Source of the DNA: Oscillatoriales cyanobacterium
GTDB taxonomy: Bacteria; Cyanobacteriota; Cyanobacteriia; Cyanobacteriales; Microcoleaceae
Reading direction: 5' to 3'
Length of the DNA: 64,000 nucleotides
Assembly: GCA_004292955.1 (NCBI GenBank)
Contig: RDXX01000027.1
Coordinates: 1 to 64,000, forward strand
The translations under genes were made by a program, and so were the position numbers. Positions 37,092-42,319 of the stretch are shown one piece after another. Position 1 is the stretch's first letter, and every line of letters starts with the position of its first letter. Under the pieces are notes generated by a model. The model did no database searches, had not been told where the DNA came from, and saw only the letters and a list, made by a program, of their open reading frames with translations.

Positions 37092-37679
37092 CTACTCACC
37101 CATCTGCGCCGGAAATACCGCAGATAAATCGAGAGACAAATCTGGGAAACCTGGAATTACCACAAACTCATTTGGCAAAACCACTCGTTTGACTCGATAA
37201 TCGAAACCACCTCTTTGTTTCTGATAAGGTTCGCTGTGCATTTCCAGTTGAATATCTACCAAATTAAATATCCAATAATCAGCAATCCCAGATTCAGCGT
37301 AGAGAGATAACTTGGTTCTTCCATCGTAATCCAAAGTAGAATCAGAAACTTCAATCACCAACAAAATATCAGCAATTAGAGGGTGAGATGATACATAATC
37401 ATCAAAGCGATTGCGTGCAATCACTACATCAGGTTCTGGTTCACTATCAGGAGGCAAAATTATCGGTTCCTGACCGCGCACGCAGGCACTTCTTGCCATA
37501 ATCAGGCACAACTCTCCCAGCAATAGAGAGTTACAAGCCGAGTGAAACGTAGTTTTTTTAGCTTTTTTGATAATTTCTCCGCGAATCAATTCAAATCGGT
37601 TATCGAATTCAAAAAATCCCAGTTCTGCCAAACGGTGATATTCGGCGATCGAGAATCGTTTTGCTGTAGCGAAAGTCAT
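37092..37679 (-). CDS. Uma2 family protein (tandem paralog 1)
   Basis: 195 residues from MTFATAKRFSIAEYHRLAEL; the frame continues upstream to 37715 but the shared N-terminus with the next gene fixes this start. Core: NRFELIRGEIIKKAKKTTFH, EPIILPPDSEPEPDVVIARN, LLVIEVSDSTLDYDGRTKLS LYAESG in order, ending AVFPAQMGE. The putative PD-(D/E)XK residues (D in PEPDV, E in VIEV, K in TKLS) are present. The 3' half is almost identical to the neighbour at 37814, indicating a recent duplication or gene conversion. Confidence 0.88.
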   Translation of the reverse strand: MTFATAKRFSIAEYHRLAELGFFEFDNRFELIRGEIIKKAKKTTFHSACNSLLLGELCLIMARSACVRGQEPIILPPDSEPEPDVVIARNRFDDYVSSHPLIADILLVIEVSDSTLDYDGRTKLSLYAESGIADYWIFNLVDIQLEMHSEPYQKQRGGFDYRVKRVVLPNEFVVIPGFPDLSLDLSAVFPAQMGE

Positions 37680-37813
37680 AGCTTTTGTTATTCTATAATA
37701 TGATTTTCGATTCAAGAATTGGCAATGAATAGAGTGCGGTAGCTCATAACAGTAATTGTCCGAAGAGTTTGTCGATGGCTGCGCCCCGGCTTGCGCCTAC
37801 GCACTCCTCAGCT

Positions 37814-38398
37814 TCACTCACCCATCTGCGCCGGAAATACCGCAGATAAATCGAGAGACAACTCTGGGAAACCTGGAATTACCACAACCTCATTTGGCAA
37901 AACCACTCGTTTGACTCGATAATCGAAACCACCTCTTTGTTTCTGATAAGGTTCGCTGTGCATTTCCAGTTGAGGCTCTACCAAATTAAATATCCAATAA
38001 TCTGCAATCCCAGATTCAGCGTAGAGAGATAACTTGGTTATCCGATCGTATTTCAAAGTAGAATCAGAAACTTCAATCACCAACAAAATATCAGCAGCTA
38101 GAGGGTGAGGAGATAAATAATTGTCAGAACGGCGGGCAATAACTAGATCGGGTTCTGGTTCGGTATCATCTGACAAAATAATCGGTTCCTGTACGCGCAC
38201 GCGAGCGCGTCTTGCCAGTAAAATGATTAACTCCTCAACTAAAAGAGTATTACAAATCGAATGAAGCCTACCTTTGGCAGCCATTTTGATAATTTCTCCG
38301 CGAATCAATTCAAATCGGTTATCGGATTCAAAAAATCCCAGTTCTGCCAAACGGTCATATTCGGCGATCGAGAATCGTTTTGCAGTTACGGCAGTCAT
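37814..38398 (-). CDS. Uma2 family protein (tandem paralog 2)
   Basis: 194 residues, MTAVTAKRFSIAEYDRLAEL. Same layout as its neighbour (DNRFELIRGEIIKMAAKGRL, DDTEPEPDLVIARRSD, DILLVIEVSDSTLKYDRITK). Both have the same C-terminal ~40 residues. Between the two genes (37716-37813) lies a copy of the GGCTGCGCCCCGGCTTGCGC repeat. Catalytic positions are intact. Function unknown. Confidence 0.88.
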   Translation of the reverse strand: MTAVTAKRFSIAEYDRLAELGFFESDNRFELIRGEIIKMAAKGRLHSICNTLLVEELIILLARRARVRVQEPIILSDDTEPEPDLVIARRSDNYLSPHPLAADILLVIEVSDSTLKYDRITKLSLYAESGIADYWIFNLVEPQLEMHSEPYQKQRGGFDYRVKRVVLPNEVVVIPGFPELSLDLSAVFPAQMGE

Positions 38399-38436: not shown

Positions 38437-39603
38437 TTACTCGAAAATCCCGCCCCGCGCGCTCAACTCAACTTTGACCCCTTCCGAAATCCCCAAACAA
38501 CCAACAAACCTCGCATTCTCCACTACCACATTTTTTAAATCAGCGCGGCTTAAATCTGCACCGTTTAAATTTGCACCGCTCAAATCAACACCGCTCAAGT
38601 CAGCATTTTTGAAATCAGTGTTTGTCAAATTCGCATTAACTAAAATTGCATTCGGTAAATAAGCACTGCTCAAATTAGCTCCGGTTAAATTTGCACCGGT
38701 TAAATTTGCCCTCGGCAGCTTGGTTCGCAAATCTGCACCGCTCAAATTGGCGCTGCTGAGTTCAGCATCCCGCAAATTAGCATTGCACAAAGTAGCATCA
38801 ATTAAAATAGCAGAACTCAGCAAAGCACCGCTGAGATCTGCCAAGGTCAAATCTGCACCTTGGAGGTTGGTTTCGCGTAAATCTGCACCGTTCAAATCAG
38901 CGTAGTTCAAGTCAAAATTCCTTAAATCAGCTCCGGCAAAATCTTCGACGGGATTCAAACCAACTGTTTCTGCAAGTTGGACAAAATCATGATGTTTGTC
39001 GGTTAAAAACAGTTCCCGCACGATCGCCAATTGCTGCTGTCGGTACTCGTCGGCTTTCTCGTAATCGGCTAAATATTTGTAAGCCAGCTTCAAACTCTTG
39101 AGAGCACTGCGCTCAACGCGATCGTCCTGGTGGGCGCGCGCCATCGACAATTGCTGCTGATAACACTCGATCGCATCGGGCAAATTTCCATTAGCATCGC
39201 AAGCCAGGGCCAAATTGCCCAAAGCTTCCAACTCTCCGCGAAAGTCGCCAGTCTCTCGCGCGATCGCCAAACGCTGCTGCTGGTAATCAATAGCACCAGA
39301 AAAATCTTCAAGGGCACAGCAAGCATTGCCCAGATTTCCCAAAGCATTTGCCTCGCCCCGGCGATCGCCAATTTCCCGCGCTAACACCAAATGCTGCTGA
39401 TAACAGTCGATCGCGCGATCGTAATTCAAGAGCGCCTCGTAAGCCACGCCCATATTACCCAACGCTGCACCCGATCGGCGCTTATCGTCCATTGAGCGAT
39501 ACAGCGTCAGGGCTTCCTGCCAAGAATCCAGCGCCGCCTCAAATTGGTGCGCCTGATATTGCAAAATCCCTTGCTTGATTAGCTCGCTAGCTTGTTCGCT
39601 CAT
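38437..39603 (-). CDS. TPR plus pentapeptide-repeat protein
   Basis: 388 residues. About five tetratricopeptide repeats (residues 5-200): QFEAALDSWQEALTLYRSMD, YDRAIDCYQQHLVLAREIGD, FSGAIDYQQQRLAIARETGD, LPDAIECYQQQLSMARAHQD and YEKADEYRQQQLAIVRELF. Then comes the hinge HDFVQLAETVGLNPVEDFAG (about 206) and ~28 pentapeptide units (ADLNGADLRETNLQGADLTL). It ends GISEGVKVELSARGGIFE. The TPRs should bind another protein and the beta-helix may be a scaffold. Shares hinge and cap with the protein at 34894-36084. The sRNA array lies just upstream on the same strand, but each sRNA has its own terminator. Confidence 0.88.
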   Translation of the reverse strand: MSEQASELIKQGILQYQAHQFEAALDSWQEALTLYRSMDDKRRSGAALGNMGVAYEALLNYDRAIDCYQQHLVLAREIGDRRGEANALGNLGNACCALEDFSGAIDYQQQRLAIARETGDFRGELEALGNLALACDANGNLPDAIECYQQQLSMARAHQDDRVERSALKSLKLAYKYLADYEKADEYRQQQLAIVRELFLTDKHHDFVQLAETVGLNPVEDFAGADLRNFDLNYADLNGADLRETNLQGADLTLADLSGALLSSAILIDATLCNANLRDAELSSANLSGADLRTKLPRANLTGANLTGANLSSAYLPNAILVNANLTNTDFKNADLSGVDLSGANLNGADLSRADLKNVVVENARFVGCLGISEGVKVELSARGGIFE

Positions 39604-39651: not shown

Positions 39652-39714
39652 CGGTAATTGCTAATGGGTAATTGCTAATGGGTAATTGCTAATGGGTAAT
39701 TGCTAATGGGTAAT
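39652..39714. repeat. Four 14-bp tandem repeats (GGTAATTGCTAATG)
   Basis: GCGGTAATTGCTAATGGGTA... four units upstream of the TPR-pentapeptide gene, in its leader region. Confidence 0.9.
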
Positions 39715-39773
39715 CGGCAATCAGTATGGCCAACTCTCGCCATTGTCCCCTCTCCCATTCTCCCCATTCAGAC

Positions 39774-39827
39774 AAAAAAAGGAGAGTCACCTCAGTAACT
39801 CTCCCGACCATCAGGGTGCATCTCTGT
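39774..39827 (-). ncRNA. Tandem small RNA, copy 4 (most diverged)
   Basis: Minus strand: TATATC (-10) ... 5' region AGATGCACCCTGATGG, terminator stem GGAGAGTTAC-TGAG-GTGACTCTCC and T7. Relative to the other copies the stem has exchanged a U-G for a U-A pair and a U-A for a U-G pair and makes the outermost pair G-C, so pairing is kept while the sequence changes. Confidence 0.8.
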
Positions 39828-40051
39828 AACATGATATAACATATTGAGAATGAGGGGCGAAGCCCAGTTTGTCAGGCTTTGATGAAAAAGTATAGCTGGC
39901 GCAACGATTTAAACCTTGCGGGCTGAAGATTGGCAGTTGCTTCAGGTATCTTCCTTCGTGACAAGCGTCCTCGCGGTTCCACAATTCGGGATTCTTCCAA
40001 GCAGAAACCGCTCATCAGTATTTTCACGTCCGTGCCCCACAAAAAAAGACA

Positions 40052-40107
40052 AAAAAAAAGAGAGAGCTACGGAAGTAACTCTCCCTGCCATCAGGGTGCA
40101 TCTACAT
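40052..40107 (-). ncRNA. Tandem small RNA, copy 3
   Basis: Minus strand: TATAGT (-10), transcript probably starting ATGTAGATGCACCCTGATGG, stem GGAGAGTTAC-TTCC-GTAGCTCTCT and T9. The region between copies 3 and 4 (39841-40045) has no ORF worth naming; GTATAGCT...GGTTTAAA blocks are shared upstream of both. Confidence 0.82.
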
Positions 40108-40334
40108 AACAGACTATAACACATTAGGGATGAGGGGTGACACCATCTTATATAAAATTTTCATGAAGAAGTATAGCTAGCCCAAACGCCTCAAACCTTT
40201 ACATATCAAGATTGCCAGCTTCTTATTGTCTATTTCTGACTGTCTTTAGCATTTTCCTGCTGCGATTATTCGGCATTTGTCCAGCCAGAATCTTGCGATC
40301 CGTATTTTTACGACCGTAGTCACAAAAAAAAGAC

Positions 40335-40389
40335 AAAAAAAGAGAGAGCTACGAAAGTAACTCTCTTTGCCATCAGGGTGCATCTACAT
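40335..40389 (-). ncRNA. Tandem small RNA, copy 2
   Basis: Minus strand: TATATT (-10), ATGTAGATGCACCCTGATGG, stem AGAGAGTTAC-TTTC-GTAGCTCTCT and T7. Outermost pair A-U here versus G-U in copies 1 and 3 and G-C in copy 4. Copies 1 and 2 plus ~200 bp of upstream DNA form a recent 273-bp duplication. Confidence 0.85.
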
Positions 40390-40608
40390 AACAGAATATA
40401 ACACGACAGGACTGAGGGGTGATACCCCCAAATGTGAAGATATTGTCAAGAAATGTATACTTAATTGTAAAGTTACCATGAAGCGGGAAGGACGGGCTCA
40501 GGAAAAACCGATCGCCCGCTACTCTATCCGCTACACGATACCACGATTGAAACCTTCCAGAAACCGCTCATCCGTATTTTCACGTCCGTGTCCCACAAAA
40601 AAAAGACA

Positions 40609-40663
40609 AAAAAAAGAGAGAGCTACGGAAGTAACTCTCCTTGCCATCAGGGTGCATCTACAT
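40609..40663 (-). ncRNA. Tandem small RNA, copy 1 (nearest gatB)
   Basis: Minus strand: TATATT (-10; 40669-40674), predicted transcript of ~55 nt beginning ATGTAGATGCACCCTGATGG, terminator stem GGAGAGTTAC-TTCC-GTAGCTCTCT and T8. The 16-nt AGATGCACCCTGATGG is identical in all four copies and lies outside the stem, so it is the likely target-pairing part. Upstream the GGGGTATCACCCC palindrome and TTGACAATATCTTCAC are shared with copy 2. No protein-coding logic: small ORFs here are not conserved between copies 1-2 and 3-4. Confidence 0.85.
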
Positions 40664-40828
40664 AACAGAATATAACACAACAGGCATGAGGGGTGATACC
40701 CCTAAATGTGAAGATATTGTCAAGAAATGTATACTTAATTGTAAAGTTACCATGAAGCGGGAAGGACGGGCTCAGGAAAAACCGATCGCCCGCCACTCTA
40801 TCCGCTACACGACTCCTTTAACGACTGC

Positions 40829-42319
40829 TTAGGCTGGGCTGTTAAGCTTGGCTGCCAGCAACTCATTGGTCAATTTGGGATCTGCCCGGCCGCCTGTTTC
40901 TTTCATCACCTTGCCGACGAAAAAGCCCAGCAGCTTAGTTTTGCCAGCCCGGTACTGTTCGAGCTCCTTGGGATTGGCGGCCAACACTGCATCGATCGCG
41001 CGATCGATCGCCCCTGTATCAGAAATTTGAATCAAACCCTTGCTTTCAACCAACTTCTGAGGCGAACCGCCGTTTGCTAGTAACTCCGGCAAAATATCCT
41101 TAGCGATTTTGCCGCTGATCGTGCCAGCATCAATTAGCCCCAGCAGTTCGGCCAAATCCTGCGGTTGGAAAGGAATTTGTGCGATCGCCAGTTTCTCATT
41201 TTTCAGATAAGCAGTGATATCGCCCATCACCCAATTCGCAGCGCCTTTAGCCACAGCACCGGCGGCGATCGACTTTTCAAAATACTCAGCCACCGCTTTG
41301 TCGTCAGTCAAAACCCGCGCGTCGTAGGGAGAAAGACCTAGTTGAGTTTCGTAGCGGTATCGTTTTTCTGCTGGCAATTCCGGCAGTTGAGCTTTCCAAT
41401 CGTGCAGTTGATCTGCCGAAACTTCGATCGGAGGCAAATCCGGTTCCGGGAAATAGCGGTAATCGCTCGCACCTTCCTTAATCCGCATACTGAAAGTACA
41501 CTGCTTGTTTTCATCCCAAAGCCGCGTTTCTTGGATGATGGTTTCGCCATTTTCGATCGCTTGAATTTGCCGCTCGATCTCGTAATCGATCGCCCGTTCG
41601 ATCGCATTAAAAGAGTTCATATTTTTAATTTCCACCTTCGTGCCGAACTCTTTTCTGCCAACGGGGCGCACCGAAATATTCACGTCGCAGCGCAGGGAAC
41701 CTTCCTGCATATTCCCGTCGCCGACACCGATATAACGCACGATCCGGCGCAATTCTTGACCGTACTCGGCAGCTTCCGCGCCCGTTCGCAAATCCGGTTC
41801 CGAAACAATTTCGATTAAAGGCACGCCGGCGCGGTTGTAATCTACCATTGAATAAGTAGAACCGCTGAGGCGATCGCTACCGCCGTGAACCAATTTCCCT
41901 GCATCTTCCTCCATGTGCAAGCGAGTGATTCCGATTTTTTTTCTAGTAGAATTGCCTGTCTCGTCCACCAGTTCAATTTCTATTGAACCGTTAGTAGCGA
42001 TCGGCAAATCGAACTGAGAAATTTGATAATTTTTTGGCAAATCGGGATAGAAATATTGCTTGCGGTCAAACTTACTATAAGGTGCAATTTGACAGTTGAG
42101 AGCTAGCCCTGCCTTCACTGCATACTCCAGCACTTTTTGATTTAATACTGGCAACACTCCAGGCATCCCCATACAAATTGGGTCAATGTTAGTATTTGGA
42201 GCATTACCAAATTCTGTAGAAGAGCTGGAGAAAATTTTAGTATTCGTACTCAATTGACAGTGAGTTTCGAGACCGATAACAGCTTCGTACTGAGTTTTAA
42301 CTGATGTAGCAGCAGTCAT
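40829..42319 (-). CDS. gatB: Aspartyl/glutamyl-tRNA(Asn/Gln) amidotransferase subunit B
   Basis: 496 residues, normal for GatB. N-terminal catalytic-kinase cradle domain: [90 protein letters not shown] and [14 protein letters not shown]. The C-terminal helical and YqeY-like tail domains bind tRNA ([34 protein letters not shown]). With GatA and GatC (not in the window) it converts Glu-tRNA(Gln) to Gln-tRNA(Gln), essential because most cyanobacteria lack GlnRS. ATG at 42319. A hairpin repeat sits in its upstream region (42376-42439). Confidence 0.98.

Follow-up and report, generated by a model that had tools for sequence, protein, structure and literature searches.

What is encoded by four small tandem units on the minus strand between gatB and a TPR-pentapeptide-repeat gene, and under whose control do they stand? 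The locus lies in the window, the whole 64,000-nt stretch of DNA analysed here. The array proved to be real and conserved, and belongs to a widespread, apparently undescribed sister group of NsiR1; judged by its promoters, this group appears to be under the direct control of HetR, a regulator of cell differentiation. Our main reading, an old class of HetR-controlled base-pairing sRNAs that is sister to NsiR1 and consists of independent trans-acting genes of about 50 nt, is held with a probability of roughly 0.72.

Anatomy of the array

Each unit presents in 5' to 3' order a dyad, a TATA-type -10 hexamer, the segment AGATGCACCCTGATGG (the seed), a GAGAG...CTCTC hairpin and a T-run of 8, 7, 9 and 7 nt in copies 1 to 4, respectively (Table 1). 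The units are spaced by 274-282 bp, and in all of them the dyad is centred about 37 nt and the -10 hexamer ends 9 nt upstream of the seed. The window has four exact occurrences of the invariant 16-mer, all on the minus strand; with up to three mismatches it was found at 5 places versus 0.35 expected from shuffles. Copies 1 and 2 are a duplication with a period of 274 bp, covering 215 nt at 95 % identity. The first-pass annotation had reported the four copies, their -10 boxes and T-runs of 7-9 nt as well as a recent 273-bp duplication, and these descriptions held apart from the one base pair in the period. Its assignment of the units as sRNA genes, each equipped with a promoter and a terminator, is likewise supported.

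Table 1. Features of the sRNA array and its flanking genes, in window coordinates
Feature	Position	Strand	Remarks
sRNA copy 1	40608..40663	-	full-length RF02399 match; R1 match 40613-40659
Copy 1 seed AGATGCACCCTGATGG	40644..40659	-	invariant 16-mer
Copy 1 terminator hairpin	40617..40640	-	followed by one base, then 8 T
Copy 1 -10 box TATATT	40669..40674	-	
Copy 1 HetR-type dyad GGGTATCACCC	40691..40701	.	exact GGGN5CCC; core according to the accessible part of PMC4192349
sRNA copy 2	40335..40389	-	seed 40370-40385, hairpin 40343-40366
Copy 2 -10 box TATATT	40395..40400	-	
Copy 2 HetR-type dyad	40417..40427	.	exact GGGN5CCC
sRNA copy 3	40052..40107	-	seed 40088-40103, hairpin 40061-40084
Copy 3 -10 box TATAGT	40113..40118	-	
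Copy 3 HetR-type dyad TGGTGTCACCC	40135..40145	.	one mismatch to GGGN5CCC
sRNA copy 4	39772..39826	-	seed 39808-39823, hairpin 39781-39804; top R1 score among the four
Copy 4 -10 box TATATC	39833..39838	-	
Copy 4 HetR-type dyad GGGCTTCGCCC	39855..39865	.	exact GGGN5CCC
gatB	40829..42319	-	gene immediately upstream, same strand; recurrent neighbour of this sRNA class
TPR-pentapeptide-repeat gene	38437..39603	-	downstream neighbour

Just downstream of the array, ATTACCCATTAGCA units form a short tandem repeat (about 39660-39725). Two adjacent, similar ORFs at 37092-38398 (minus strand) resemble what we take to be Uma2-type endonuclease genes. The best NCBIfam match of the TPR-pentapeptide protein was HetL, at 95.9 bits far under the cut-off of 260 bits; HetL is a pentapeptide protein that interacts with HetR in Nostoc, according to the accessible part of PMC7476756.

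The outermost stem pair is G-U, A-U, G-U and G-C in copies 1 to 4, and two inner pairs alternate between U-G and U-A, as had been noted before. Four copies by themselves are thin evidence for covariation. In an alignment of 100 sequences, both sides had changed in 6 of 10 stem pairs, a number reached by 3 of 500 shuffles (mean 3.0). Paired cells made up 93.1 % of the stem, versus 88.9 % after shuffling and 46-62 % after sliding by 1-3 columns, and the covariation score was 0.346 versus 0.262 for shuffled sequences. RNAalifold predicted the same helix, one pair shorter, and the folding energies of the four copies were 1.8-2.5 standard deviations below those of shuffles. The proposed selection on the RNA stem is supported. 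The covariance model R1 was built from these 100 sequences, with L148 omitted for want of a near T-run; the four window copies score 60.0-67.6 bits and match by construction, being part of the model. At E <= 0.001, R1 matched 180 of the 319 genomes of the class, so the 16-mer with its hairpin is present in related genomes, although some of the matches with E of about 1e-4 to 1e-3 may be noise. In G001, a genome of the same genus as the window's and very similar in size, R1 matches were weak (best E 1.9e-4); gatB-linked copies are perhaps absent there, or the assembly has a gap at that place.

In every copy there is an ATG at seed position 3, and the conserved segment might be read as a leaderless micro-ORF (ATGCACCCTGAT, M-H-P-D...). 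This is extremely improbable, since CAC, CCT and GAT show no synonymous variation even in NsiR1 loci that passed the Rfam cut-off and were not selected by an exact seed, the remainder of the frame varies in length and phase, and the stem covaries. One NsiR1 copy of the window's genome has GGT in place of GAT. Single folds leave the seed unpaired or weakly paired; its earlier designation as the likely target-pairing part is supported.

Relation to NsiR1

A default Rfam scan of the window returned no NsiR1 match. The first-pass annotation had recognized a multi-copy arrangement like that of NsiR1, which is supported, and had seen no sequence link, which is wrong: in a scan by E-value threshold RF02399 aligned in full (1-60 of 60) to all four copies, with 30.1, 28.3, 27.6 and 17.1 bits. 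Its interpretation of the units is partly supported, the denied kinship being the part that failed. The HetR-type promoter, the co-occurrence with hetR and the gatB/argJ synteny had escaped it. The copies have the 5' segment of NsiR1, UAGAUGCACCCUGAU: all four contain AGATGCACCCTGAT, which is preceded by U in copies 1-3 but not in copy 4.

The window's genome also contains canonical NsiR1 copies, scoring up to 55.6 bits. They begin with TGGTAGATGCACCCTGAT or close variants. About 39 nt upstream of the seed they have TCCGGA (DIF1), which in some of them deviates by one mismatch. No DIF1 was found in the four window promoters, no window copy reached the RF02399 gathering score of 39 bits, and the array is not located upstream of hetF, its neighbours being gatB and the TPR-pentapeptide gene. 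For these three reasons the window copies were not filed as NsiR1 proper. A rival view takes them as plain NsiR1 copies with a drifted DIF1 promoter, in line with the 14-nt seed in common, the full-length alignment to RF02399 and the tandem multi-copy nature of NsiR1 (described in the accessible part of PMC9045159). We consider it quite unlikely that no separate class exists: besides the scores under the gathering threshold, both kinds occur in one genome with different terminators, promoters and neighbours, and the split between the kinds recurs across families. The best reading of the sequences is a gatB-linked sRNA that forms a sister class to NsiR1, has a HetR-type promoter and occurs in filamentous cyanobacteria with and without heterocysts.

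Other identities were discarded. NsiR8 and NsiR9 are too long (171 and 122 nt), and the further Rfam matches below gathering score (Afu_190, mir-955, sR12, STnc170) were taken as chance. In the openly licensed literature we found no report of a HetR-box sRNA or of a gatB/argJ-linked relative of NsiR1, so the term undescribed is provisional.

Canonical DIF1-type NsiR1 copies stand at two contig ends of the window's genome (end of C76, start of C111; loci L314/L315) and are probably one array split by the assembly. A complete genome of the same genus (G033) has a ten-copy NsiR1 array beside a subtilase/DUF5942 gene; neither of the two flanking genes scanned there was hetF-like.

Promoters

GGGnnnnnCCC is described as a requirement for HetR, with GAGGGGTCTAACCCCTC as the site at hetP, and HetR-bound promoters lacking GGGN5CCC are also reported (accessible part of PMC4192349). 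The upstream sequence of window copies 1, 2 and 4 matches this core exactly, that of copy 3 with one mismatch. Among 155 box copies with a GAGAG-type terminator, in which some species are counted under two names, the box started at -42 from the seed in 118, with 28 spacings allowed in the search, and ended 16 nt before the -10 element in 83. The box thus spans -42 to -32, and DIF1 starts mostly at -39, so that both motifs are centred near -37. The flanks were biased as well: in 135 distinct promoters, G precedes and C follows the box in 93 % each, then come T or C, C (87 %) and A (84 %).

A promoter census was based on 32 hand-picked genomes, all of which contained the seed (32/32; reversed control 0). 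Copies were classified in 28 genomes; G047 was represented by 3 of its 10 places, and copies with less than 70 nt upstream were dropped. Of 149 seed copies, 67 had an exact and 28 a one-mismatch DIF1, 35 an exact and 8 a one-mismatch GGGN5CCC, 3 had both motifs at one mismatch and 8 neither. Both exact motifs never occurred together. Copies with the NsiR1 seed fall by promoter into two classes, which would respond to two steps of one circuit, HetR itself and HetZ/DIF1, respectively.

Repressors commonly bind over the -35 position, which the box overlaps. The dyad might be bound by a regulator other than HetR, or HetR might act as repressor, the RNA then being made where HetR is inactive; HetR repression of several promoters is mentioned in the accessible part of PMC7761841. 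Either variant is unlikely in our view. Against them stands that the dyad matches the published HetR core (PMC4192349, accessible part), shares 9-15 of 17 letters with the hetP site across the 135 distinct promoters, tracks hetR and is missing from those hetR-less lineages that were read (see below). In addition, the activating DIF1 (accessible part of PMC7377430) occupies the same place in NsiR1 promoters. We infer that HetR itself binds the window dyads and probably activates.

Distribution and co-occurrence with hetR

Of the 388 genomes of the order, 196 had seed and box together; for the class the count was 145 of 319. A control with the reversed pattern gave 0 in every row. Named genomes contributed at least 115 stretches. 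Among the matches listed are Microcoleus, Planktothrix, Tychonema, Spirulina, Leptolyngbya, Limnothrix, Nodosilinea, Okeania, Moorena and Oscillatoria, and also Fischerella, Calothrix, Scytonema, Richelia and Anabaena/Dolichospermum. One of the stretches, from a member of the Desulfobacterales (L142), is without hairpin and was rejected as a chance match.

The presence of hetR, which the window's genome possesses, was scored by PF03574 in the same genome draws as the motif. In the order, 192 genomes had both hetR and motif, 4 the motif only, 44 hetR only and 148 neither; the corresponding numbers were 142, 3, 21 and 153 for the class and 126, 3, 11 and 140 for the orders of the class other than the window's. 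Outside the window's order, the motif was thus present in 126 of 137 genomes with and in 3 of 143 without hetR. Fisher p-values for the association were 1e-60 and below, values which ignore phylogeny.

Twelve genomes without hetR match (8 of family f17, 4 of f7; G045 of f17 had a partial match only and was left out of this count) retain the seed, the terminator and a -10-like sequence. At their seed loci GGGN5CCC was found in 0 of 12, the nearest sequences having 2-4 mismatches of 6. Three f17 loci with frames read are still flanked by gatB and argJ (argJ by sequence); at L328, the single f7 locus read, the neighbours are different.

The exact motif was absent from 44 of 236 hetR-bearing genomes of the order, 36 of them in family f33. 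In the five of these 36 for which a copy of this kind was classified (G077, G168, G278, G330, G382), the copy has an exact seed and a box that deviates by one mismatch; in G168 and G382 a second, weaker copy lies beside the first. Such imperfect boxes, in copies that are gatB/argJ-linked or match that class, may explain why the class went unnoticed in the Nostoc model. The motif without detected hetR was limited to 4 of 196 genomes in the order (G008, G144, G199, G258), whose family relatives do have hetR, and to 3 of 145 in the class (G393, G475, G659). Completeness was 82 % for G199, 89 % for G258 and 94-99 % for G008, G144, G393 and G659; poor assembly therefore cannot explain every motif-only genome. 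G031 (family f31) has no detected hetR; its NsiR1 copies comprise two of the DIF1 type, of which one has a single mismatch, and a further copy with neither motif.

Genomic neighbourhood and history

In 52 of 116 loci, the window included, one of the first two genes upstream is gatB in the same orientation; in 49 it is the nearest ORF. An argJ-like gene followed downstream in 27, both genes were present in 18 and neither in 55; the family assignments were confirmed on samples of these loci. Since this synteny spans distant genera, the locus looks old. The recurrent position downstream of gatB and upstream of argJ, all in one orientation, would also suit a cis element of the neighbours, a gatB terminator or an attenuating argJ leader. 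This is very improbable, considering the own -10 element and dyad of each unit, the tandem duplicates (4 in the window, 8 in L183), the sites without argJ or gatB (the window's downstream gene; contigs C37 and C145 of the window's genome) and the 14 of 18 argJ starts without notable seed pairing. Independent sRNA genes with a preferred location are the reading retained.

The closest named relatives among those compared, Tychonema LEGE 06208 (gatB identity to the window 93 %), Lyngbya CCAP 1446/10 (92 %), Microcoleus FACHB-DQ6 (92 %) and Microcoleus EPA2 (87 %), each have one full copy at this place. The four-copy array looks therefore like an expansion in the window's lineage, a correction to the first-pass annotation. 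Arrays in other lineages comprise, for example, 7 copies in Moorena (L119) and 5 in Dulcicalothrix (L158).

The window's genome has two further HetR-box copies, one beside serS and one before a protein-kinase gene. A third kind of sRNA, combining HetR box and seed with an NsiR1-like terminator, was observed beside serS on the opposite strand (G000:C145:118059-118116; L070, L080, L087, L134, L156, L166). At G000:C37:48230-48280 and in L058, L079, L089, L163 and L167 the box lies about 8-12 nt before the -10 element, a spacing unlike that of the gatB-linked class.

Candidate targets

In Nostoc, pairing of NsiR1 with alr3234 (HetP family) is proven and an action on the hetF start region reported (accessible part of PMC9045159). 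As a target in cis, argJ was rejected: for 14 of 18 start regions, a set with some genomes fetched twice, about half or more of 200 shuffles equalled or surpassed the pairing with the seed. Exceptions were L224/L298/L309, one genome present three times, and L312. Judged by these pairings, argJ is an unlikely target.

For HetP-family starts, 19 loci were fetched, of which 18 were usable, and 700 gene starts served as control. Four of the 18 lay beyond the 5 % point of the control (L360 and L362 of f33; L346 and L355 of other families), with a Mann-Whitney p = 0.03 against p = 0.69-1.0 for 20 shuffled seeds. An apparently stronger signal, obtained with a mononucleotide-shuffle control, was reduced when real gene starts were used for comparison; HetP-family starts appear at best weakly enriched for seed pairing. 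No HetP-family match was found in the window's genome.

Proposed mechanism and significance

In the proposed mechanism each unit would be an independent gene for a trans-acting sRNA of about 50 nt, sister to NsiR1 by the common unpaired C-rich 5' segment and distinct in terminator, promoter and genomic home. This home would be the 3' side of gatB, ancestrally probably between gatB and argJ. HetR dimers would bind the GGGN5CCC dyad standing in for a -35 element and most likely activate by recruiting the polymerase to the adjacent TATA-type -10 box in cells where HetR is active. The RNA would terminate at the hairpin, and its C-rich 5' segment may pair with target mRNAs around their translation starts, as demonstrated for NsiR1 in Nostoc. 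The increase to four copies by duplication may provide a higher dosage and room for divergence of the copies.

A wider scenario is tentative, and we would put it slightly below even odds: the gatB-linked HetR-box sRNA may be what HetR originally controlled directly in multicellular cyanobacteria, before heterocysts existed. The core job of HetR without heterocysts would then be the switching of a translation-repressing sRNA, and heterocyst formers would have moved the seed to HetZ/DIF1-dependent NsiR1 arrays while the old box decayed in Nostoc-like genomes. The array offers a direct, sequence-defined candidate target of HetR that is common to most hetR-bearing genomes examined, and makes the role of HetR in species without heterocysts testable with one probe.

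Comparison with known systems

The window dyads share the GGGN5CCC core, its spacing and the dyad symmetry with the HetR site of hetP and hetZ (GAGGGGTCTAACCCCTC); unlike that site, they are putative sites identified by motif and take the -35 position of an sRNA promoter. In DIF1 promoters (TCCGGA; hetR, patS, patX, nsiR1) the element has its centre at the same distance from the RNA, but the window motif is that of HetR itself, whereas DIF1 expression is HetZ-dependent according to the accessible part of PMC7377430. An NsiR1-like RNA of 57 nt, RNA162, is reported for Limnospira indica PCC 8005 in the accessible part of PMC8400943; compared by description only, it has in common with the window copies the resemblance to NsiR1 in a non-heterocystous species. 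The closest known system is the heterocyst-specific NsiR1 of Nostoc sp. PCC 7120, a HetR-dependent RNA of early (pro)heterocysts, with which the window copies share the segment AGATGCACCCTGAT, the size, an intrinsic terminator, the tandem multi-copy habit and a promoter logic linked to HetR. They differ from it in a score below the Rfam gathering threshold, a HetR-type dyad instead of DIF1 in the promoter, a GAGAG/CTCTC instead of a CCCC/GGGG terminator, and a location that is 3' of gatB and not, as in NsiR1, upstream of hetF.
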